Below, one piece after another: positions 5,901 through 50,481 of a DNA stretch of 64,000 nt. The stretch covers positions 62,001 through 126,000 of the forward strand of contig JACPYL010000015.1 in the NCBI GenBank assembly GCA_016196065.1, read 5' to 3'. The stretch is from Acidobacteriota bacterium. Lineage in GTDB: Bacteria; Acidobacteriota; Terriglobia; Terriglobales; Acidobacteriaceae. Numbering within the stretch: the stretch's first letter is position 1; every line of letters begins with the position of its first letter. Made by a program: the position numbers and the translations under genes. The notes under the pieces were generated by a model. That model did not search any database. It was given only the letters and a program-made list of their open reading frames with translations, and was not told the DNA's origin.

Positions 5901-5961
5901 AACTCGACCTTACCACCTTCCCCTAGATTCGTTTCCCACAGCGTCGCGGCTCAGAAAACGC

Positions 5962-7413
5962 CTATTTCTTTGTGCCTTCCGGCTTCTTGCTGTCAAAGCT
6001 TTCTTTATCCAAGAGCGGCTGCGGATTGACCGGCGTTGCGGGCGACTGAGAACTCGGAGATACCCGTCGCGCCGTACACACCACCATCAACTCACCCCGG
6101 CTCTTCTGAATGCTCTTACTCTTGAAAAAATTGCCCAGCACAGGGACGTCTCCCAGCCATGGAACTTTGCTGGTGATGTTGGTCAGGCGGTTGTCAATTA
6201 ATCCGGCAATGACGAAACTCTGGCCGTCCTGCAGTTCAAATTCGGTGTCTGCCTTGCGCGTGCTGATGGCGGGTACGGTGGTTCCGGCGACGGTCACGGA
6301 GTTCGTAAAGTCCAGCGTGCTGACCTCTGGCACAACCCGCAAATGGATATTTCCGTTGGGCTGAATTATCGGAGTGAATTTCAGGCGCACGCCAAATTCG
6401 CGGAACTGGATCGTCACAGTGGACAATCCTTGCGCGCTCGGCTGTGCCACGGGGAAGGGAAATTCTCCGCCGGCCAGAAAACTTGCTTCCTTGCCATTGA
6501 CGGCGATCAAATTCGGCTCGGCTAGTATCTGCAGCAGGTTCTTTTGCTGCAGAGCGCGGATGACAGCTCCGATGTTGATGTCGGTGCGCGCGATAAACAG
6601 GTTGAGAAAATCGTTGACGCGAGTAACGGGTGGAGTCAGCGTCGTGGTCGTTGTCTGGGTGTTGCCGTTGGTCACAGTTGTTTGGGCAGTGTTGCTGATA
6701 CCAAGGCCGCCAAATTGACCCGTCTGGCTGAGGCCGACGGTGTTGCCCAGTCCCGGCATGAATAAATTGGCGCCAAGTTGGACTACCGCAGACCGATCGA
6801 CCTCGGCGAATTTCACTTCCAGAAGAACTTCCTGCGCTCCGACCGGGCCGAAGCTCAATACGTTGACGACATTCTTAGAATAGGCGGATGCGATCGCGCC
6901 GGCGTGCTTGGAGACATCTTCGGTCGTGACATGTCCAGAGAGCACGATCGCCGAGCGCGAAGGCGTGACGCTAATTTGTTCGTCCGGGAAAAGCCGGTGC
7001 ACTTCTTCGGCGGCGGCAGTCACGTCGACATCGACCCGCAGATCAAAACTCTGGGAGCGTTCCGCCTCGTCCCAGATCATGAGCGAAATTTCTCCTGGCG
7101 CAAGTCCATTGACGAGCACTTGATTCGGCGTCACCACCAGGGCGTCAGCGACGGCGGGATCGGTGACAGAAACGCGTTTCAACCGCTCCGTGGTGTTAAT
7201 CAGCAATGATTTGCCCACCATCACCCGTAGCGGGGCGGCCCCAGGCGTTGCCTGCGTGGAAGTTTCGGCTGCCGGAGTCGAGACTTGGGAAGTGGCCGCA
7301 TTTCCCGGGGCGGCCGCAGGGGCGCTCTGTGAACCGGCGGACTCTGTGGCAAGCGCCAACACGGGTGCGATGCACAGGATCACAGCGCCTGCGAGCAGCG
7401 TGAACACTTTCAT
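5962..7413 (-). CDS. cpaC: Tad outer-membrane secretin CpaC/RcpA
   Basis: From ATG 7413 (GGAGAGG just upstream) the protein has 483 residues and begins with a signal peptide, KVFTLLAGAVILCIAPVLALA. The longer open frame upstream of this ATG lacks protein-like sequence. A pilus-specific N-terminal domain (VGKSLLINTTERLKRVSV), a BON-like segment and a C-terminal secretin domain (VPWLGDVPVLGNFF) follow. It forms the outer-membrane channel for the Flp pilus. A Thr/Asn/Gln-rich stretch near residues 225-255 is probably a surface loop. Confidence 0.94.
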   Translation of the reverse strand: MKVFTLLAGAVILCIAPVLALATESAGSQSAPAAAPGNAATSQVSTPAAETSTQATPGAAPLRVMVGKSLLINTTERLKRVSVTDPAVADALVVTPNQVLVNGLAPGEISLMIWDEAERSQSFDLRVDVDVTAAAEEVHRLFPDEQISVTPSRSAIVLSGHVTTEDVSKHAGAIASAYSKNVVNVLSFGPVGAQEVLLEVKFAEVDRSAVVQLGANLFMPGLGNTVGLSQTGQFGGLGISNTAQTTVTNGNTQTTTTTLTPPVTRVNDFLNLFIARTDINIGAVIRALQQKNLLQILAEPNLIAVNGKEASFLAGGEFPFPVAQPSAQGLSTVTIQFREFGVRLKFTPIIQPNGNIHLRVVPEVSTLDFTNSVTVAGTTVPAISTRKADTEFELQDGQSFVIAGLIDNRLTNITSKVPWLGDVPVLGNFFKSKSIQKSRGELMVVCTARRVSPSSQSPATPVNPQPLLDKESFDSKKPEGTKK

Positions 7414-10252: not shown

Positions 10253-11473
10253 ATGGGCTGGAATCGATTGAGTCGTCGTAAAGAATTCGTCGCCGGAATT
10301 TTCCTGCTGGCGATGGCCGTCAGCCATCTCGTCATGGCAGCGAAGCTGACGCCTTATCTCAGGAACGGCTATCCGAATTTTGCCAGCTTTTATACCGCGG
10401 GCACGATGGTGCGGACTGGCCAGGCCACCGCACTTTACGACTTACCGGCGCAGTACGAGATGCAAAAGCAATTTGCGCCCAACGTTTCGATACGTCAGGC
10501 TGCACTGCCGTATATTCATCCTCCCTTTGAGGCGCTGCTGTTTGCGCCGCTGACGCTGCTTCCATACTGGCCGTCTTATCTATTGTGGACGGCACTGAAC
10601 CTGGTTTTGCTGGCGGTCAGCCTGTTGATTTTGAGGAGTGGCCCGGGACTAAAAGGAGTGTCGCCGATTTTTCTCGCACTGGCCGCTGCGGGGTTTTATC
10701 CGGCTGTTACTTCGTTGATTCAGGGGCAGGACTGCATTCTCTTGTTATTTCTGTTCGTGCTCGCGGTCGTGGCTCTGGAAAAAAGATGGGACACTGCAGC
10801 TGGATTGCTTCTGGCTGGCGGCATGTTTCGCTTCCAACTCGTGTTGCCCGTGATCCTGTTACTGGCGATTCGGCGATGGAGAATTTTGCTCGGGTTTGTT
10901 CCGATGTCCGTTTTGCTTGGTGTTCTGTCCCTTGGCATGGTGGGATGGACGGGTGTAACCGGCTACCTCCATTTCCTTATCAACATGGAGAAGGGCGGGG
11001 CGGGCGGCAGCATCGTGCCTTCGGGGATGCCCAACTTGCGCGGCCTGCTGGCGGGACTACCCGGTGTGTCGGCAGACTCCAGTCCGATATTCGTAGCAAC
11101 TATGTTGTGTTCCGTTGCGGTGATGGGGATCGCGGGATATTGCATTCGCTTCCAGAAATATTCCCTCCGTTTCACATTCACGCTGGCAACCGTAGCGGCT
11201 CTTCTGGTCAGCTATCACTCACTGACCTACGATCTGAGCCTTCTGTTTCCAGCCATCCTCCTGCTTTTCGCGGATGGTGAGCACGCGACTAAGAGATCCG
11301 GGCAAATCGACATCCTGCTTCTGCTGTTGCTGTACGCTCTTCCTCGCTTTGAGTTGGTTGGGGCCTGGTTGAGCCCTTTCGTCTGGTTCGCTGCGTTTCT
11401 GTTCTGGCTATTCCGGAAGGGTAATCTCTCCGGCCAACTTACGGAGCACGCAACCGGAACGCAGGCGTTGTAG
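10253..11473 (+). CDS. GT87-family (DUF2029) membrane glycosyltransferase-like protein
   Basis: This 406-residue polytopic protein carries the N-terminal signature NFASFYTAGTMVRTGQATALYDLPAQ, typical of GT87/DUF2029 proteins (polyprenyl-phosphate-mannose-dependent alpha-mannosyltransferase relatives). The protein is largely hydrophobic, with many transmembrane segments. It is followed after 22 bp by a second protein of the same type, which suggests a tandem pair acting on a shared lipid-linked glycan. The substrate cannot be read from sequence. Confidence 0.78.
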   Translation: MGWNRLSRRKEFVAGIFLLAMAVSHLVMAAKLTPYLRNGYPNFASFYTAGTMVRTGQATALYDLPAQYEMQKQFAPNVSIRQAALPYIHPPFEALLFAPLTLLPYWPSYLLWTALNLVLLAVSLLILRSGPGLKGVSPIFLALAAAGFYPAVTSLIQGQDCILLLFLFVLAVVALEKRWDTAAGLLLAGGMFRFQLVLPVILLLAIRRWRILLGFVPMSVLLGVLSLGMVGWTGVTGYLHFLINMEKGGAGGSIVPSGMPNLRGLLAGLPGVSADSSPIFVATMLCSVAVMGIAGYCIRFQKYSLRFTFTLATVAALLVSYHSLTYDLSLLFPAILLLFADGEHATKRSGQIDILLLLLLYALPRFELVGAWLSPFVWFAAFLFWLFRKGNLSGQLTEHATGTQAL

Positions 11474-32892: not shown

Positions 32893-32917
32893 CCGGTTTG
32901 ATATGGGGCAGGGAAAC

Positions 32918-32937
32918 GGCGGAGAGGGTGGGATTTG
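32918..32937. repeat. att-like duplication of the tRNA-Ser 3' end
   Basis: GGCGGAGAGGGTGGGATTTG is identical to 37050-37069, the 3' acceptor stem and T-arm of tRNA-Ser(CGA). No functional tRNA follows here. A second copy of a tRNA 3' end at the far side of foreign DNA is the classic trace of site-specific integration, so this marks the left end of the islet. Confidence 0.85.
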
Positions 32938-33059
32938 GACCAAAGCCGTGTTGATTCCGCTTACGTTGTTGATTCTCTAATGTCCCAAAAGTCCAAGATG
33001 TCCAAGAAGTCCTGGCGGCTAGCACAAATCAGCTCGATTTTTCGGGGCCGGAATTGTGA

Positions 33060-33097
33060 CCCGTGGGTCAATGAGTGTAATGGCGATATTACGTCAA
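33060..33097. repeat. Palindromic islet repeat, partial copy E
   Basis: Only the right half is recognisable (GTGTAATGGCGATATTACG, ending near GTCAACC). It matches the right halves of copies B and C. It lies between the left att copy and the first islet gene. Confidence 0.6.
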
Positions 33098-33168
33098 CCA
33101 CCGTCGCAGAAGGCTGTTAGTCTCGGGCTGTAGTCAGATTTCAAACCCCATTTTGGAGTAGCCAGCCC

Positions 33169-33555
33169 GTGCATACGAAGATGCTTATGCGCCTAAGCTC
33201 GTTGTTTCTTGGGATTCTGGGGCTTGCAGCTTCTTTTATGCCGCAGGAAATTCTGGCCCATTATGGCGCGCATTCGAGTGGACTAGGTACCTTGCTGCTG
33301 CAAGTCGTGGGTGCGCTGTATCTGGGGTTCGCTGTTCTGAACTGGATGGCCCGGGACATCCTCATCGGCGGTATTTATGCGCGTCCGGTAGCACTCGGCA
33401 ACTTCCTCCACTTCGGTATCGTGGGGCTCACTGTGTGGAAGGCAATCGCCAGTGGGACGTCCAGGAGCAGCGACATCGTCACGGGGGCAATCGTTTATTC
33501 GGTCTTTGCGGTGTGGTTTGGTTTGGTCGTGTTTACTCATCCAACGAAGCAATGA
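33169..33555 (+). CDS. Small membrane protein, unrecognised
   Basis: This 128-residue protein starts at GTG 33169 with GGAG about eleven bases upstream. It has four hydrophobic segments (near residues 6-24, 42-62, 78-96 and 103-122), suggesting a four-helix membrane protein. No motif points to a function. It is the first islet gene, flanked by repeats E and A. Confidence 0.65.
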   Translation: MHTKMLMRLSSLFLGILGLAASFMPQEILAHYGAHSSGLGTLLLQVVGALYLGFAVLNWMARDILIGGIYARPVALGNFLHFGIVGLTVWKAIASGTSRSSDIVTGAIVYSVFAVWFGLVVFTHPTKQ

Positions 33556-33596
33556 GGAGGCAGCACGGTTTCACCGCTTTCTCACCGCTGACGTTA

Positions 33597-33676
33597 AACA
33601 GGCGATTTCACCAACAACCAGCCCCACGCGTGCCCGTGCCGGGGTTGTTAGTGAAATCGGGATTTTACGTAAAATG
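33597..33676. repeat. Palindromic islet repeat, copy A
   Basis: GCGATTTCACCAACAACC (33602-33619) pairs with GGTTGTTAGTGAAATCGG (33643-33660), with a GC-rich centre that can also pair. A perfect palindrome, TTTTACGTAAAA, follows at 33663-33674. It sits between the first and second islet genes. Confidence 0.8.
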
Positions 33677-33735
33677 AGACATGGCGCGCTCCCAAATTCA
33701 CCCCTCACCCGAAATCCGCTCCCGGTGCTTTCTAT

Positions 33736-34089
33736 GTGGTGAAGGGGGAATGTCTGGCTTGCGGAGTTCCTCACGTCGTAGCGCCTGATCTCGTTGGCTG
33801 GGCAGAGGAGAAGGTGCAACACTGCTTTTGGAAGAAACAACCTGAAACTCCAGCGGAACTCGAACAGGCCATTGCGGTTCTCGAAGCCCAAGAATTGGAC
33901 TGTCACCGCTATGCAGGAACCGACCCTGCAATTCTTGACCGCGTATTGTCCACACACTGCGACTATCCGATGCAGTCGCCGACCCTAGTCAAACGGACCG
34001 ATCCCCACCCGGCGCATTTTGCGCTCCTCGATGATCCGCCCAGTCTACTCGCCAGAGTATGGGGCATAATCACGGGGCGTAGTGGCTAG
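33736..34089 (+). CDS. Cys-containing ferredoxin-like small protein, possibly 5'-truncated
   Basis: This 117-residue frame from GTG 33736 shows ECLACGVPHVVAPDL, later HCFWKKQPETPAELEQAI and CHRYAGTDPAILDRV. The spacing recalls small single-cluster ferredoxin-like proteins of soil bacteria, but the family is not certain. The same frame stays open upstream through GAFYVV to a stop at 33670-33672 without any start codon, and repeat A ends there. The gene may have lost its original 5' end to the repeat. Confidence 0.55.
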   Translation: MVKGECLACGVPHVVAPDLVGWAEEKVQHCFWKKQPETPAELEQAIAVLEAQELDCHRYAGTDPAILDRVLSTHCDYPMQSPTLVKRTDPHPAHFALLDDPPSLLARVWGIITGRSG

Positions 34090-34130
34090 TCCGAGTGCGC
34101 ACATTATCAGGCCACTCCGGTCGGCAGTAC

Positions 34131-34406
34131 TTACCTGCCAGCCGCTTTTAGAATGACCATCGCGCACAGGCCTACGACACCGGAAACAATGCCCGTCCAG
34201 AATACAAACCGACAGAAACGTGGTAGGACGCTCCGGGGAAACAGGGATTCATAGGTCTGCAAAACGTCATCACCGCCACGGAAACTCAGCCACTCGATTC
34301 TGTTTCTCGATGAATCCACTTTCATCAACCGGACTCGCATGGCCCAATGGAACACAATGCTGACGAGCGCCAGCATCACCAGTGCCGAGAGCGCGAAAGC
34401 GACCAT
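34131..34406 (-). CDS. Small two-helix membrane protein, unrecognised
   Basis: This 91-residue protein has hydrophobic helices at about residues 2-24 and 68-88, with a basic middle loop. It converges on the Cys-containing gene and is flanked by repeat B at its 5' side. No family is recognised. Confidence 0.5.
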   Translation of the reverse strand: MVAFALSALVMLALVSIVFHWAMRVRLMKVDSSRNRIEWLSFRGGDDVLQTYESLFPRSVLPRFCRFVFWTGIVSGVVGLCAMVILKAAGR

Positions 34407-34470
34407 TTAACTGCCTCTCCGAGGCCCGCGAACGTCCGTATGATATGCCAATCAAGGGTAACTGGCGAAG

Positions 34471-34540
34471 TCAGGCGATTGCACCAACTACTGTCCTCAG
34501 CCTGCGGGGCGGAGTTGTTAGTGTAATCGCGATATTATGA
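34471..34540. repeat. Palindromic islet repeat, copy B
   Basis: GCGATTGCACCAACTACT (34475-34492) pairs with AGTTGTTAGTGTAATCGC (34513-34530), including a G-T pair where copies A and C have T-A and A-T. A GC-rich centre (CCTGCGGGGCGG) and a trailing GATATTATG follow the family pattern. Confidence 0.8.
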
Positions 34541-34575
34541 CAGTTAGCGACCCTAAGCCGCCATCTTTCCCGTAA

Positions 34576-35136
34576 CTACAAGTCCAACTTGACCTTGGGT
34601 GCGTCTGGACACGGGGTCCCTGTCATCGAGTTTTTTAGCGTGCGTAGAGTAGCTTCGACCGCTGCGAAATCCGGGGGGATAAACTCTCTTCTGCCGTTCA
34701 ACTCCCCGGTCTCGAAGACCCAAAGCCCATGCGTTGATTTGCTGGAAATCATGATGATGTGTAAGTGCCACGGAAACGCTTCAGCGGCCCCCACGTAGTT
34801 AGGGAACCCATTCTGTGGGAGTTCAACAAAGTGTCTTTGAATCATCAATCGAACCAAGGATTCGATTTCCTGCTGGCTTGCGGTAGAGGTGCAAGTTGGG
34901 ACGACACCATCGTCTTCAACAGTTCCATCGGTGCGGTATTTTTGCAACGCAAGCCTGCCGTCACCGTAGACGAACAAGGCCTCGTGCGACTCGTCATAAT
35001 AGATTTTGAGGTCCTTGCGGGAGGAAGTGTCCGTCAACATGCTGGCGAGGCCAGTTGGCCTTGCCACATGGCGGACAAAGGCCAACATGGAAACCACGAG
35101 AACCAGTACGAGCAAGTAAAGGGTTGCCTGCCTCAC
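34576..35136 (-). CDS. Membrane-anchored hypothetical protein
   Basis: This 186-residue protein has an N-terminal hydrophobic segment (TLYLLVLVLVVSMLAFV), then a soluble domain (KIYYDESHEALFVYGDGRLALQKY; FVELPQNGFPNYVGAAEAFPWHLHIIMI). The soluble part looks like an extracytoplasmic ligand or inhibitor domain, but I do not recognise it. It lies alone between repeats B and C. Confidence 0.6.
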   Translation of the reverse strand: MRQATLYLLVLVLVVSMLAFVRHVARPTGLASMLTDTSSRKDLKIYYDESHEALFVYGDGRLALQKYRTDGTVEDDGVVPTCTSTASQQEIESLVRLMIQRHFVELPQNGFPNYVGAAEAFPWHLHIIMISSKSTHGLWVFETGELNGRREFIPPDFAAVEATLRTLKNSMTGTPCPDAPKVKLDL

Positions 35137-35239
35137 TGCGTGATTGTAGGTCTCTAAATATCCGCGTCAATAGCCCGAAAGTCGCCTACATGAGTTCAAT
35201 GGCAATGCGATGTGCGACCATAGACTAATGGCTGGTGTT

Positions 35240-35313
35240 AACAGGCGATTACACCAACAACTGCCCTCATCCTGCCGGGCCGGGTAGTTGATGTAATGGC
35301 GATTTTTCGCCAA
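35240..35313. repeat. Palindromic islet repeat, copy C
   Basis: GCGATTACACCAACAACT (35245-35262) pairs with AGTTGATGTAATGGCGAT (35286-35303), with a GC-rich centre CCTGCCGGGCCGGG. It separates the gene at 34576-35136 from the S41 peptidase gene. Confidence 0.8.
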
Positions 35314-35416
35314 CTATCCGCGACGTGACGCGCACCAAATGGAGTTCGGTGTACAATTTTGCTCTCCTAAGCTAGAAAAATCGCCGTCCGCGGCTCTCAA
35401 ATAAGGCGAGATCGCA

Positions 35417-36739
35417 ATGCCTTGGTTTGGCAAGAAACTTACTCGTTGTTCCGCAGCGTTGGGCGCACTGCTAGGGTTGCTTCCTGTCCTCTCCTGGCCC
35501 CAACAGTTCAGCAAATCTGACCGCGATCTCGTCCAAGACATGCTGCGAAATGTGGCGCGAGATGTTCAAAAGAACTATTACGACCCTAAGTTTCATGGAG
35601 TGGATTGGGACGCGACGGTCCGTAAGGCGAAGGGAAATATCGACAAAGCCGATTCGCTAAACGGTGCCGTATCGGAGATCGCCGCCGCCCTCGATAGCCT
35701 GAACGACTCTGGTACGTTTTTTGTTCCGCCGCCACGCACGTATGTGCATGACTACGGGTTCACGATGCACCTAATTGGCGAAGGCTGCTTTGTCACTCGA
35801 GTGCGCCCAGGCAGTGATGCGGAAAAGAAAGGCCTCAAGGCAGGAGATCAGATTCTTGCCATCAACGAGCATCGCCTTTCACGCAAGACACTTTGGAGAG
35901 TCTTTTATATCTACGGAGATTTAGACCCCCAACCTGGCCTTCGTCTGACCCTAACCGACGAAGGCGGTCAACAGCGACAGCTGGAAGTCGGTGCGAAAAT
36001 CGAAACGTCTTCGGGAGTAAGGTATTTCCTGCAACACGGTCTGGGTCAGCGCATCCGCGACTGGCAAGACGTGGACGATAGCATGGTGCCGCGTTATTTC
36101 GAGAAGGGTGACTCCCTGTTGGTGGTGAAAATACCTTACCCTTCGGCTTTGGATGTTGATCGAATGATAAGAAAGATGCGGAAGCACAAAGGCGTTGTCA
36201 TCGATTTGCGGGGGAGTGGCGGCGGCAGGCCGGAGATACTCAAGCAAATGCTGGGAGGCATCTTTGAGCATGAAGTGAAGATCTATGACCGCATTGGAAA
36301 AGCCTCGACACGGTCCGAATCTGCGGTAGGCCGCCACCACGATGCTTTTACGGGAAGGTTAGCCGTCCTGATCGATAGCCAGTCCGCAGAGGCGTCCGAG
36401 TTGTTCGCTCGCGTCGTCCAGATGGAGAAGCGCGGATTTATTATAGGAGACCGCAGTACCGGTCACGTGGATCTATCAAAGGGCTTTTTTTATGAAACCT
36501 ATCTGGATTCCGAGGTTTTCTATAGGGTATTCGTTACCGACGCTAACCTCGTCATGACAGACGGCAAGAGTTTGGAGCATGTGGGCGTAGAACCGGACAT
36601 CACTGTTCTTCCGACGCCTCACGATTTGGCAAGGGGCCGGGATCCAGCGATGGCGAAAGCTGCCGCGCTGGTTGGCGGTCAGCTTAGCCCAGAAGAGGCT
36701 GGAAGAATATTCCCGGATGCTGAGTCACCCCAGCACTGA
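35417..36739 (+). CDS. PDZ-S41 family peptidase-like protein
   Basis: This 440-residue protein has a hydrophobic N-terminus, a PDZ domain (CFVTRVRPGSDAEKKGLKAGDQILAINEHRL) at about 115-190 and an S41/tail-specific protease core (KGVVIDLRGSGGGRPEILKQML; VLIDSQSAEASELFARVVQ). The catalytic Ser is probably in QSAEASE. Where most family members read GEKTxGKG this one reads GDRSTGHV, so the Lys general base may be absent and activity is uncertain. It is the largest cargo gene of the islet. Confidence 0.85.
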   Translation: MPWFGKKLTRCSAALGALLGLLPVLSWPQQFSKSDRDLVQDMLRNVARDVQKNYYDPKFHGVDWDATVRKAKGNIDKADSLNGAVSEIAAALDSLNDSGTFFVPPPRTYVHDYGFTMHLIGEGCFVTRVRPGSDAEKKGLKAGDQILAINEHRLSRKTLWRVFYIYGDLDPQPGLRLTLTDEGGQQRQLEVGAKIETSSGVRYFLQHGLGQRIRDWQDVDDSMVPRYFEKGDSLLVVKIPYPSALDVDRMIRKMRKHKGVVIDLRGSGGGRPEILKQMLGGIFEHEVKIYDRIGKASTRSESAVGRHHDAFTGRLAVLIDSQSAEASELFARVVQMEKRGFIIGDRSTGHVDLSKGFFYETYLDSEVFYRVFVTDANLVMTDGKSLEHVGVEPDITVLPTPHDLARGRDPAMAKAAALVGGQLSPEEAGRIFPDAESPQH

Positions 36740-36846
36740 AAGGCAGACGTCCCGGCCCTACCACTCCGGTCGATTCTTGAGGCATACATTTCCGCGTTAG
36801 GCTTCCGTCTCTCATCAAAGCTCGCGGGAGTCGAAGCAAACTGTTG

Positions 36847-36943
36847 TTAACAGGCGATTACACCAACTACTTTGAAACGCGTACGAGCCGCCGCAAATCG
36901 CTACGGCCGACCCCTCTACAGCCCCGTAGTTTGGTAAATCCGC
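36847..36943. repeat. Palindromic islet repeat, copy D (long, diverged)
   Basis: The left arm GCGATTACACCAACTAC (36854-36870) pairs imperfectly with GTAGTTTGGTAAATCCGC (36926-36943) around a 55-base centre, longer than in the other copies. It lies between the S41 gene and tRNA-Ser, so every islet gene unit is bordered by a copy. Confidence 0.68.
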
Positions 36944-37051
36944 ACACGGATTTTGTCCCGAGGCGCTAAGGCCGAGGACGTTAGCACAGGATTAGCGCAG
37001 ATCATATGGCAGTTCGGTGATGCTATTGAGAACAAAGCGGTAAAAGAATGG

Positions 37052-37138
37052 CGGAGAGGGTGGGATTTGAACCCACGATACCCGTTAAGGTATGTCCGCT
37101 TTCGAGGCGGATCGTTTCAACCACTCACGCACCTCTCC
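37052..37138 (-). tRNA. tRNA-Ser (CGA)
   Basis: Read on the minus strand, GGAGAGG pairs with CCTCTCC to close the acceptor stem. The anticodon arm is TCCGC-CTCGAAA-GCGGA with anticodon CGA, a long class-II variable arm follows, and the T-arm is GTGGGTTCAAATCCCAC. CCA is not encoded. Its 3' end faces the islet and is duplicated at 32918-32937. Confidence 0.95.
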
Positions 37139-49245: not shown

Positions 49246-50481
49246 ATGGCAAGGGTCAAGCAGTATGGCAATCGCGTCAACGTCCTCAAGTACATCAAAG
49301 CCGCCGCCGGTTGGCGCTTTGCCGCTGTCGTCGAAAACCGGGGCAAGGTGGTCCGCGACCACGTCCTGCTCGCTGGACAGGATGAACATCATGCCGAAGG
49401 CACTTACTACATCGAGTGGTATGAGAACGGTAAACGGCACCGCAAGGCCATCGCCGATCTTGCGCACGTGGCCGAAGCGGCGCGGGTCAAGGCCATTGAA
49501 GTAGAGGCGCTCAAAGCAGGTGTGCTGGTTCGGCCCGCGCAACCAGCCGCCGCAACCAACCGCATTGCGCCGAAAACAGCCGTTGACCAGTATCTTGCCA
49601 TGGTCGAGGCGCAGCGTAGCCCCCGGACCTATCTGAGTTACCGTTACACCCTGAAGAAGCTGCTGCTCCCATCGTACGAGAAGGAGTCCGTGGACCAGGT
49701 GACCCGCGAGGACATCCTGACCTTCATGACGCGTTGCTACACCATTGGGCTTGGCCCGCGTACGGTCTATGACAAATTAGTCGTGGTTCTGCAGTTCTTC
49801 AAACGCCAGGGGAAAAGCGGGTTGCTCGCACCGAGCGACTGGCCGAAATACGTTGAAACCATCCGGCCGATTTATGAACTGGAGGAGATTCATGCGATGT
49901 TCAAGCATGCCAAAGACGATGAGGCTCTTTTTCTGAAATTCCTGCTCGTCTCCGGCTTTCGCGACCAGGAAGCGCAACACGTTTCGTGGCGTGACTTCGA
50001 CTTCCGCCACAGTCAGGTACGAGTGACCGCCAAACCGTTGTGGGGATTCCGTCCCAAGAACTGGGAGGAACGAGTGGTGCCCCTTCCGACTCCCTTCGTC
50101 GACCAGCTTCTCAGGGTAAGAGAGGGGCGCAACGCGCAGCTGGCGCAATTGGTCTTCCCCAACAAACGCGGCCGCCCCAATCGGGAGAATGACACGATTG
50201 TGAAGCGGGTCGCCCACCGGGCGGAATTGAACTGTGGACAGTGCGTTACCAGGCACGGCAATCGGTGCGCGGAAGGGCCTTTCTGCCAACTATTTTTCCA
50301 GCACAAATTTCGCCACACGTTTGCTACCGAGCATTTGCGTCATGGAGTGGACATTCGCACCCTTCAGTCCTGGATGGGACACCGTGACATCCAGTCGACC
50401 ATGGTGTATCTGAAAGGCGTCCAATCAAAAGATGCCCTGGCAAAAGTAAACGCAGGCGCTCTTGCGGCGTATGTCGCCTGA
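49246..50481 (+). CDS. Tyrosine recombinase (integrase) with an inserted four-Cys cluster
   Basis: From ATG 49246 (GAGGTGA seven bases upstream) the product has 411 residues. A SAM-like core-binding domain (PRTYLSYRYTLKKLLLPSYE) is followed by the catalytic domain: Arg in LLVSGFRDQEAQHVSW, HKFRHTFATEHL (HxxR), WMGHRDIQST and the Tyr in MVYLKG. A C-x2-C-x7-C-x5-C segment at about residues 328-345, just before HxxR, may bind zinc and is unusual for integrases. Its position beside the cut tRNA supports a role in integration there. Confidence 0.93.
   Translation: MARVKQYGNRVNVLKYIKAAAGWRFAAVVENRGKVVRDHVLLAGQDEHHAEGTYYIEWYENGKRHRKAIADLAHVAEAARVKAIEVEALKAGVLVRPAQPAAATNRIAPKTAVDQYLAMVEAQRSPRTYLSYRYTLKKLLLPSYEKESVDQVTREDILTFMTRCYTIGLGPRTVYDKLVVVLQFFKRQGKSGLLAPSDWPKYVETIRPIYELEEIHAMFKHAKDDEALFLKFLLVSGFRDQEAQHVSWRDFDFRHSQVRVTAKPLWGFRPKNWEERVVPLPTPFVDQLLRVREGRNAQLAQLVFPNKRGRPNRENDTIVKRVAHRAELNCGQCVTRHGNRCAEGPFCQLFFQHKFRHTFATEHLRHGVDIRTLQSWMGHRDIQSTMVYLKGVQSKDALAKVNAGALAAYVA

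Follow-up and report, generated by a model that had tools for sequence, protein, structure and literature searches.

Integrons are the best-known collectors of single genes in ordered arrays, and mobile insertion cassettes (MICs) consist of a passenger gene between inverted repeats, with no transposase. Integron cassette arrays without an integrase are referred to as CALIN in PMC8618304, and PMC12907356 and PMC6449649 describe the pdif or dif modules of Acinetobacter, that is, small gene modules lying between short recombination sites on chromosome and plasmid. Here, we describe an islet of small genes separated by palindromic repeats at positions 33060-36943 of the window, a 64,000-nucleotide stretch of an Acidobacteriaceae genome (assembly GCA_016196065.1, contig JACPYL010000015.1, positions 62,001 to 126,000, forward strand). 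The islet is probably a mobile gene-cassette array of Acidobacteria, built on 26-bp core sites and with a tyrosine recombinase of a type that we call RecY as its likely enzyme. At the level of sequence, this reading is built on core structure, clustered arrays, a common orientation, shared units and breaks at the centres of the sites. Among the literature matches listed, there was no paper on such arrays.

The arrays are built from a 26-bp core in which two inverted 10-bp arms flank a 6-bp centre, and each palindrome consists of two such cores in inverted orientation, L followed by R, around a GC-rich hairpin spacer. Three palindromes of about 85 bp each lie between the small genes of the window (33589-33673, 34462-34543 and 35232-35313), with arms of the form GCGATTnCACCAAC / GTTGnTGnAATCGC at 33602, 34475 and 35245. 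The left-arm pattern matched the window ten times at up to two mismatches, compared to 2.28 matches expected and a maximum of six in shuffled sequence. At its two ends, the array is bounded by lone half-sites, an R at the start (33072) and an L at the end (36841). The features of the array are as follows (loci and genomes are numbered, for example, L032 and G010).

33072..33097, + strand: R core site at the array start, without an L partner (position weight matrix (PWM) score 37 bits; upstream L-like score only 8)
33169..33555, + strand: unit 1, 128-aa predicted protein (no match in Pfam or NCBIfam)
33589..33614, + strand: L core site, left half of copy A (site scan)
33615-33647: spacer of copy A, between L and R
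33648..33673, + strand: R core site, right half of copy A (site scan, folding)
33736..34089, + strand: unit 2a, 117-aa predicted protein (no family match)
34131..34406, - strand: unit 2b, 91-aa predicted protein (unit 34110-34492, also in arrays L032 and L042 of the genome, at 96% nt identity to the window)
34462..34487, + strand: L core site of copy B (site scan)
34518..34543, + strand: R core site of copy B (site scan)
34576..35136, - strand: unit 3, 186-aa predicted protein (no family match)
35232..35257, + strand: L core site of copy C (site scan)
35288..35313, + strand: R core site of copy C (site scan)
35417..36739, + strand: unit 4, 440-aa S41 peptidase with a PDZ domain (PF03572, E 3.5e-19; PF00595, E 4.4e-08)
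36841..36866, + strand: L core site at the array end, copy D, no recognisable R (PWM 38 bits)

The S41 peptidase is the sole window unit with a known domain. The original prediction had posited a family of palindromic repeats that separates every gene unit of the islet. The repeats are real, with arms found in three copies, but the supposed copy at 36851-36943 turned out to be a left half-site only (its downstream DNA has an R-score of 8, compared to a background 99th percentile of 11, and an ordinary fold with a z-score of -0.79), and the copy near 33060 is the right half-site at 33072-33097. The repeats divide nearly all units; no scoring site lies between the genes at 33736-34089 and 34131-34406, though in other arrays of the genome the latter makes up a separate unit.

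The L consensus reads nTGnnGtaAn-CAGGCG-aTtnCACtaA and the R consensus TgaGTGtAAT-gGcGAT-tTtnCgcCAa, R being approximately the reverse complement of L, the centre excepted. The arm consensus nTGnnGtaAn is close to TTGnCGnAAn in the islet's own genome, and the opposite arm, as its reverse complement, is TtaGTGnaAt. CAGGCG is the centre in 161 of 196 L sites, and nGCGAT or nGGGAT in 162 of 187 R sites. Within half-sites, 5.2 of 10 arm positions agree as a palindrome, compared to 2.8 with permuted columns, and permutations were as good in 0 of 200 trials for the 196 L sites and in 1 of 200 for the 187 R sites. Two inverted arms around a 6-8 bp centre, at which the crossover falls, represent the core format of tyrosine recombinases, and the sites have it; the breaks at the centres that accompany this format come from few independent cases. 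Partner-like sequence is missing beside 52 of 60 lone L sites (one clipped at the end of its locus) and beside 33 of 46 lone R sites, which suggests that the functional element is the 26-bp half-site and not the palindrome. A short element of up to ~170 bp with inverted ends near TGGCTGTTGAAAAACTC was found in or beside CAGGCG centres in five genomes of the genus, in some copies with CAGGCG on both sides (L120:2777-2909, L135:36-168, L128:3247-3378, L121:2678-2749, L133:427-558 and L125:6349-6481), and this small element seems to target these cores.

Searching the islet's own genome at up to one mismatch yielded 48 pattern matches, with 0 for a reversed-pattern control, and the sites group in ~16 islets. 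Thirty-five of the 48 matches lie within 5 kb of another match, compared to 3.9 under random placement and at most 12 in 500 trials; genome-wide copies mainly outside islets, the sign of an ordinary dispersed repeat according to the original prediction, are thus not what the genome contains. For six of the 13 isolated matches, the locus holds between two and six scoring sites. Of the remaining seven, five were inspected; four of these lie in loci without sites, and the locus of the fifth has two weak ones. The window and 20 fetched loci together hold 64 L and 42 R sites at 18 bits or more; across five shuffled windows, a single site passed a lowered threshold of 13 bits. Neighbouring sites have the same orientation in 208 of 214 cases, as counted for pairs within 4 kb in loci with at least three sites of 20 bits, a few of which overlap.

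Between successive sites, we counted 113 units in the window, the genome's own loci and those of relatives, with six loci left out; 67 run from R to L, 26 from L to L, 15 from R to R and 5 from L to R. The median unit measures 680 bp, its longest open reading frame (ORF) covers 82% at the median, and these longest ORFs run against L in 71 units and with L in 41. The units carry varied cargo, with 79 Pfam families matched by 102 ORFs and at most three members in any one family. No recombinase or transposase is present among the 25 Pfam families displayed for these ORFs, and 20 longer unit ORFs examined singly had no match to such a family either. Islets, mostly single-gene units, a shared orientation, a recurrent unit and the absence of attC cores support the earlier proposal that the islet is a cassette-like array other than an integron.

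Several observations point to movement of these units. Three arrays of this genome share the unit with the 91-aa gene (window 34110-34492, L042 and L032) at 92-96% identity, and its copies keep the outer L arm except for one base and diverge at or past the centre. A ~210-bp element is present three times in the L042 array (L042:3666-3875, 5951-6168 and 10575-10787), each copy directly after an L core and ~89% identical to the others; the inner arms are identical and the preceding outer arms differ. In genome G018, one unit end is present twice, with a common outer arm and divergence directly after CAGGCG, and in G004 and G018, a common chromosomal flank stops at GCGAT and is followed by different units with their own R outer arms. 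In the same line, seven pairs of L sites with homologous left flanks agree at 0.86 in the outer arm (baseline 0.61) and at 0.79 in the inner arm (0.67), and in 23 pairs with homologous right flanks the inner arms agree at 0.87 and the outer arms at 0.72. As hairpin spacers recur beside different neighbours (L032, L034 and window 35232), they seem to be exchangeable modules, too.

At L046, an R-gene-L unit lies between two convergent genes. No site of at least 16 bits is present at this point in 19 of 19 relatives, 17 of which have both flanking genes; in the 12 relatives for which the intergenic DNA was printed, nine have a short gap only and three other DNA. The same gap holds two more genes without recognised sites in the islet's own genome. 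At L039:5708-6332, a single R-gene-L unit lies inside a 20-nt direct repeat (18/20 identical) whose two copies start 34 nt ahead of R and 34 nt past L, respectively, with a score of 14 compared to a control maximum of 12. Flanking direct repeats within 500 nt that exceeded controls were found at 2 of 16 islets only, one of them being a tRNA end; few-base duplications were untested.

A candidate enzyme is encoded inside the arrays of three genomes of the genus (G010, G011 and G012). RecY, predicted at 416-419 aa and 77-79% identical over ~430 aligned residues of the open frames, has a Phage_integrase (tyrosine-recombinase) domain and matches the PDB chains 4a8e and 1a0p. The G010 copy scores 121 bits for XerC and 110 bits for XerD, compared to cut-offs of 335 and 330 bits, respectively. 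In all three genomes, the edges of the RecY block are inner arms (GCGATAGCGCTCA or GCGTTAGCGCTCA, and TGAGCGCTATCGC); outer L arms flank the block on both sides in G010 and G011, the sites facing it from either side, and the far side lacks an outer L arm in G012. Downstream of RecY, L317:3236-4173 holds a small 126-aa ORF and a 186-aa ORF, the latter presumably resembling the pRiA4b ORF-3 family. Viral contigs contained no RecY.

A diverged parallel is found on the Granulicella tundricola plasmid pACIX905, whose recombinase, annotated as a tyrosine-type recombinase/integrase, shares 62.5% identity with RecY across 73% of the query. Around its gene, the motif TTGCCGAAAA-N6-TTTTCGG gives six matches at four places in 8.9 kb, compared to an optimistic chance expectation of 0.02. 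A looser motif marks 41 places over 42 kb, with 65 raw matches compared to 6.1 in shuffled sequence (at most 13), and 29 of the 41 places lie outside genes, though genes occupy 74% of the sequence. Several inverted pairs surround a GC-rich hairpin, and one entire paired block occurs twice; the pACIX905 array has the same paired-site layout in diverged sequence. Beside RecY relatives in Acidisarcina, Paludibaculum and Deinococcus, we found no convincing sites. The insertion absent from relatives, the array-borne RecY in three genus mates and this plasmid parallel, all read from sequence comparison, add to the case for cassette movement, and recombination would occur at the centres, through RecY or, failing RecY, through XerC/XerD.

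A number of points weigh against this reading. RecY is present in only three genomes of the loci compared, where nothing else reaches 90 bits with the RecY profile apart from shorter reads of two RecY genes. The islet's own genome has no close RecY, the best of its 12 tyrosine-recombinase matches being an XerC at 69 bits, and the block that encodes RecY may itself be no more than one further mobile element targeting these sites. No near-identical unit is shared across two species, and unit proteins match between genomes at 32-40%. The breakpoint pairs are few and not independent; one of the seven left-homologous L pairs is misregistered, and the right-homologous L set includes shared spacers as well as shared genes. 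The R sites give a weak signal: 23 left-homologous pairs agree at 0.78 in the inner arm (baseline 0.71) and at 0.71 in the outer arm (0.66), and there is only one right-homologous pair. The R sites at the G004/G018 breakpoint are also weak (16 bits in G018, unscored in G004), because their inner half is flank DNA. On pACIX905, the motif was derived from the same stretch before counting, which makes the chance expectation optimistic, and a strict search with the outer-arm pattern found none in that stretch. The array region of the plasmid also has three 'recombinase family protein' genes, the usual annotation name for serine recombinases, and a duplicated gene; the RecY relative is thus the best enzyme candidate on pACIX905, not the sole one.

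Whether the palindromes are selected as folded structures is a separate matter. DNA folding z-scores of the three window palindromes range from -2.3 to -3.6 on both strands. The first covariance model was built from 19 own-genome copies, which show no covariation above shuffling (score reached in 209 of 500). Between species, 73 anchored sites were reduced to 51 by anchor and letter filters, and with one left out by hand, the remaining 50 sites from 13 genomes showed covariation of the inner stem (0.249 compared to 0.148 shuffled; 0 of 500). The outer arms, in turn, showed none beyond shuffling (467 of 500 as good), neither within the site nor within the unit, and the three unpaired loop positions between outer and inner stems each pair in at most 1 of 51 sites. 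As swapping right halves within genomes left the inner pairing equally good in 175 of 1,000 trials, the inner-stem covariation is a lineage signal, which fits a folded site as well as arms read by one protein. The compensatory change at one arm position that had been cited as a sign of selection for a folded form did not hold up: this position pairs in 53% of the 51 sites, compared to 55% after shuffling, and, with the own-genome copies showing no covariation, selection for folding drawn from it is without support.

Among the other explanations, host XerC and XerD might recombine the cores as they do in the pdif modules of Acinetobacter, which would make RecY incidental. We regard this as unlikely, yet it has several points in its favour. 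The genome has two adjacent Xer-type genes, one matching best as XerC (just under the cut-off) and the other with XerD in its top two, and similar pairs exist in genus genomes; the cores have two inverted arms and a 6-bp centre; and, going by a title cited in PMC6449649, the Acinetobacter modules are flanked by inversely oriented sites. The genus chromosomal dif, AATGTCCGATAA-CAGGTA-TTATGTnAACT with a variable centre, was identified in 18 of 24 genomes (for example, L193-L207), and its centre CAGGTA resembles the L centre CAGGCG. One array also abuts xerC: it ends at the xerC 3' end with xerD adjoining (L043:8490-10631), the xerC stop codon lying inside a model-matched site (L043:8490-8582). 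However, the likeness of the sites to the genus dif is not significant, with column permutations as good in 59 of 300 for L and 29 of 300 for R (20 of 51 clean sites). When compared to one hand-picked L consensus, the whole dif was matched by 16 of 5,000 shuffles, but the XerD arm by 675, the XerC arm by 2,296 and the centre plus XerD arm by 1,062. In the islet's own genome, the first pattern found no canonical dif, and the left arm is absent from the best match. A third Xer-like integrase of the genome (L053) was rejected as a candidate, its full-length matches elsewhere being at most ~40% identical. The units could also be single-gene non-autonomous transposons of the MIC type, with R and L as terminal inverted repeats and a transposase acting in trans, as R and L are near inverted repeats and 67 of 113 units run from R to L. 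We consider this improbable, because the inverted repeats are not at every unit (26 L-L, 15 R-R and 5 L-R), the thrice-found 91-aa unit has no R at its start, the breaks fall inside the repeats, no transposase was seen among the Pfam families displayed or the ORFs examined singly, and 14 of 16 islets have no flanking direct repeat beyond controls.

Slightly less probable still is that the repeats are ordinary dispersed palindromes or terminators that happen to lie in islands shuffled by homologous recombination. Arms conserved as sequence would fit this, short homology could give breaks within 26-bp repeats, and one of the three terminator-like matches of the islet lies inside copy B. Yet the common orientation in 208 of 214 neighbouring sites speaks against dispersed repeats, and terminators were rejected since they are not enriched in the islet (3 matches compared to 4.1 in shuffles) and sites are also found between divergent genes (15 of 74 site-bearing junctions, the others being 18 convergent and 41 tandem). 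Finally, an attC cluster of an integron that has lost its integrase and whose consensus has degenerated is highly improbable. The hairpin does recall attC in having an outer and an inner paired stem separated by a loop of three unpaired nucleotides, and integrons are reported from Acidobacteriota in PMC8618304. However, RYYYAAC and GTTRRRY occur together in 0 of 53 LR sites and one alone in five, L and R often stand alone, the outer arms show no covariation, and an integron integrase (TIGR02249) above the curated cut-off was found in 0 of 24 genus genomes. IntI-like partial matches in relatives were rejected as candidates, with 18 of 18 loci of the best such matches (up to ~1.5 kb flank each) lacking a model match; they are probably integrases of other mobile elements, perhaps of the IS91 type.

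The sites are widespread in the genus and rarer beyond it. The covariance model matches sites in 22 of 24 genus genomes, the islet's own included, and a class survey with strict filters found sites in at least 28 of 399 genomes from three families, a lower bound, as 10 candidates were scored per genome. Of 25 loci with an exact L core in the named collection, 21 belong to Acidobacteria or Terriglobia, 16 of these with a site of at least 18 bits and five without; by our own estimate, the four non-acidobacterial records are near chance level. Viral sequences contained no exact L core, and plasmids no islet. The islet's border has two further features:

37049..37138, - strand: tRNA-Ser(CGA) bordering the islet (ARAGORN, Rfam)
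32915..32941, + strand: direct repeat of the tRNA 3' end, 25/27 (score 21 compared to a control maximum of 12)

The islet thus adjoins tRNA-Ser(CGA), and the direct repeat at 32915, which matches the tRNA 3' end at 25 of 27 positions, is a possible attachment-site duplication around the whole islet. In relatives, the query made up of the tRNA and tadA matches; the left flank of the window and the islet do not. A standing insertion site at tRNA-Ser was rejected, as no site of at least 16 bits is present in 23 other loci; among the 15 of them searched for tRNAs, 12 carry this tRNA. The whole islet may have entered as part of a tRNA-borne island, an event separate from the cassette system because 14 of 16 islets have no such repeats. 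A match to a phage-type tyrosine integrase (421-aa open frame) lies at window 49882-50412, ~13 kb from the islet.

In the proposed mobile cassette array, gene units run mostly from R to L, and each palindrome is an L, a hairpin spacer and an R. A tyrosine recombinase would cut and rejoin inside the centres, L with L and R with R, whereby units and hairpin spacers could be excised, inserted and shuffled. The enzyme would be of the RecY type, encoded within the arrays of three genus mates and the diverged pACIX905 array. None of the 12 tyrosine-recombinase matches in the islet's own genome is a close RecY, which would leave the arrays there as orphans, like integron cassettes without an integrase, or reliant on an enzyme acting in trans. 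More tentatively, these arrays may constitute a cassette system independent of integrons and of XerC/XerD, with a RecY of its own and two centre types that keep units and spacers in register. Such a system would extend over chromosomal arrays of several acidobacterial families and, in a diverged version, a conjugative plasmid, and would represent an undescribed pool of single genes traded by soil bacteria. If so, an abundant soil phylum has a second system of this kind next to integrons that differs from them in its site and probably also in its enzyme, and its cassettes, mostly of unknown function, would escape integron finders. This would also raise the question of why hairpin spacers exchange as modules of their own, which bears on the origin of folded sites such as attC from plain Xer-type cores.

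Overall, the working of the array is integron-like or dif-module-like; integron membership fails on the features tested, and membership is established for neither class. Like integrons and CALIN (PMC8618304), the arrays comprise one-gene cassettes of varied function with sites in the same direction, including orphan arrays without an integrase. Unlike integrons, they have no attC cores (0 of 53), no IntI above the cut-off and many lone half-sites, and their genes lie in both orientations (71 and 41). With MICs, they share a passenger gene between inverted repeats and the lack of a transposase, but they form tandem arrays in one orientation, many of their units are single-ended and the breaks fall inside the repeats. 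RecY shares with XerD/XerC (4a8e and 1a0p) the Phage_integrase domain and matches to both chains, yet it stays far under both the XerC and XerD cut-offs. Like the small gene modules with short, often inversely oriented neighbouring sites that the Acinetobacter papers describe, the units are flanked by inversely oriented two-armed sites (67 of 113 from R to L); unlike pdif modules, the arrays have centres of two types, many sites arranged in pairs about a hairpin spacer, arms whose likeness to the genus dif is not significant by permutation and, in three relatives, an array-borne tyrosine recombinase.

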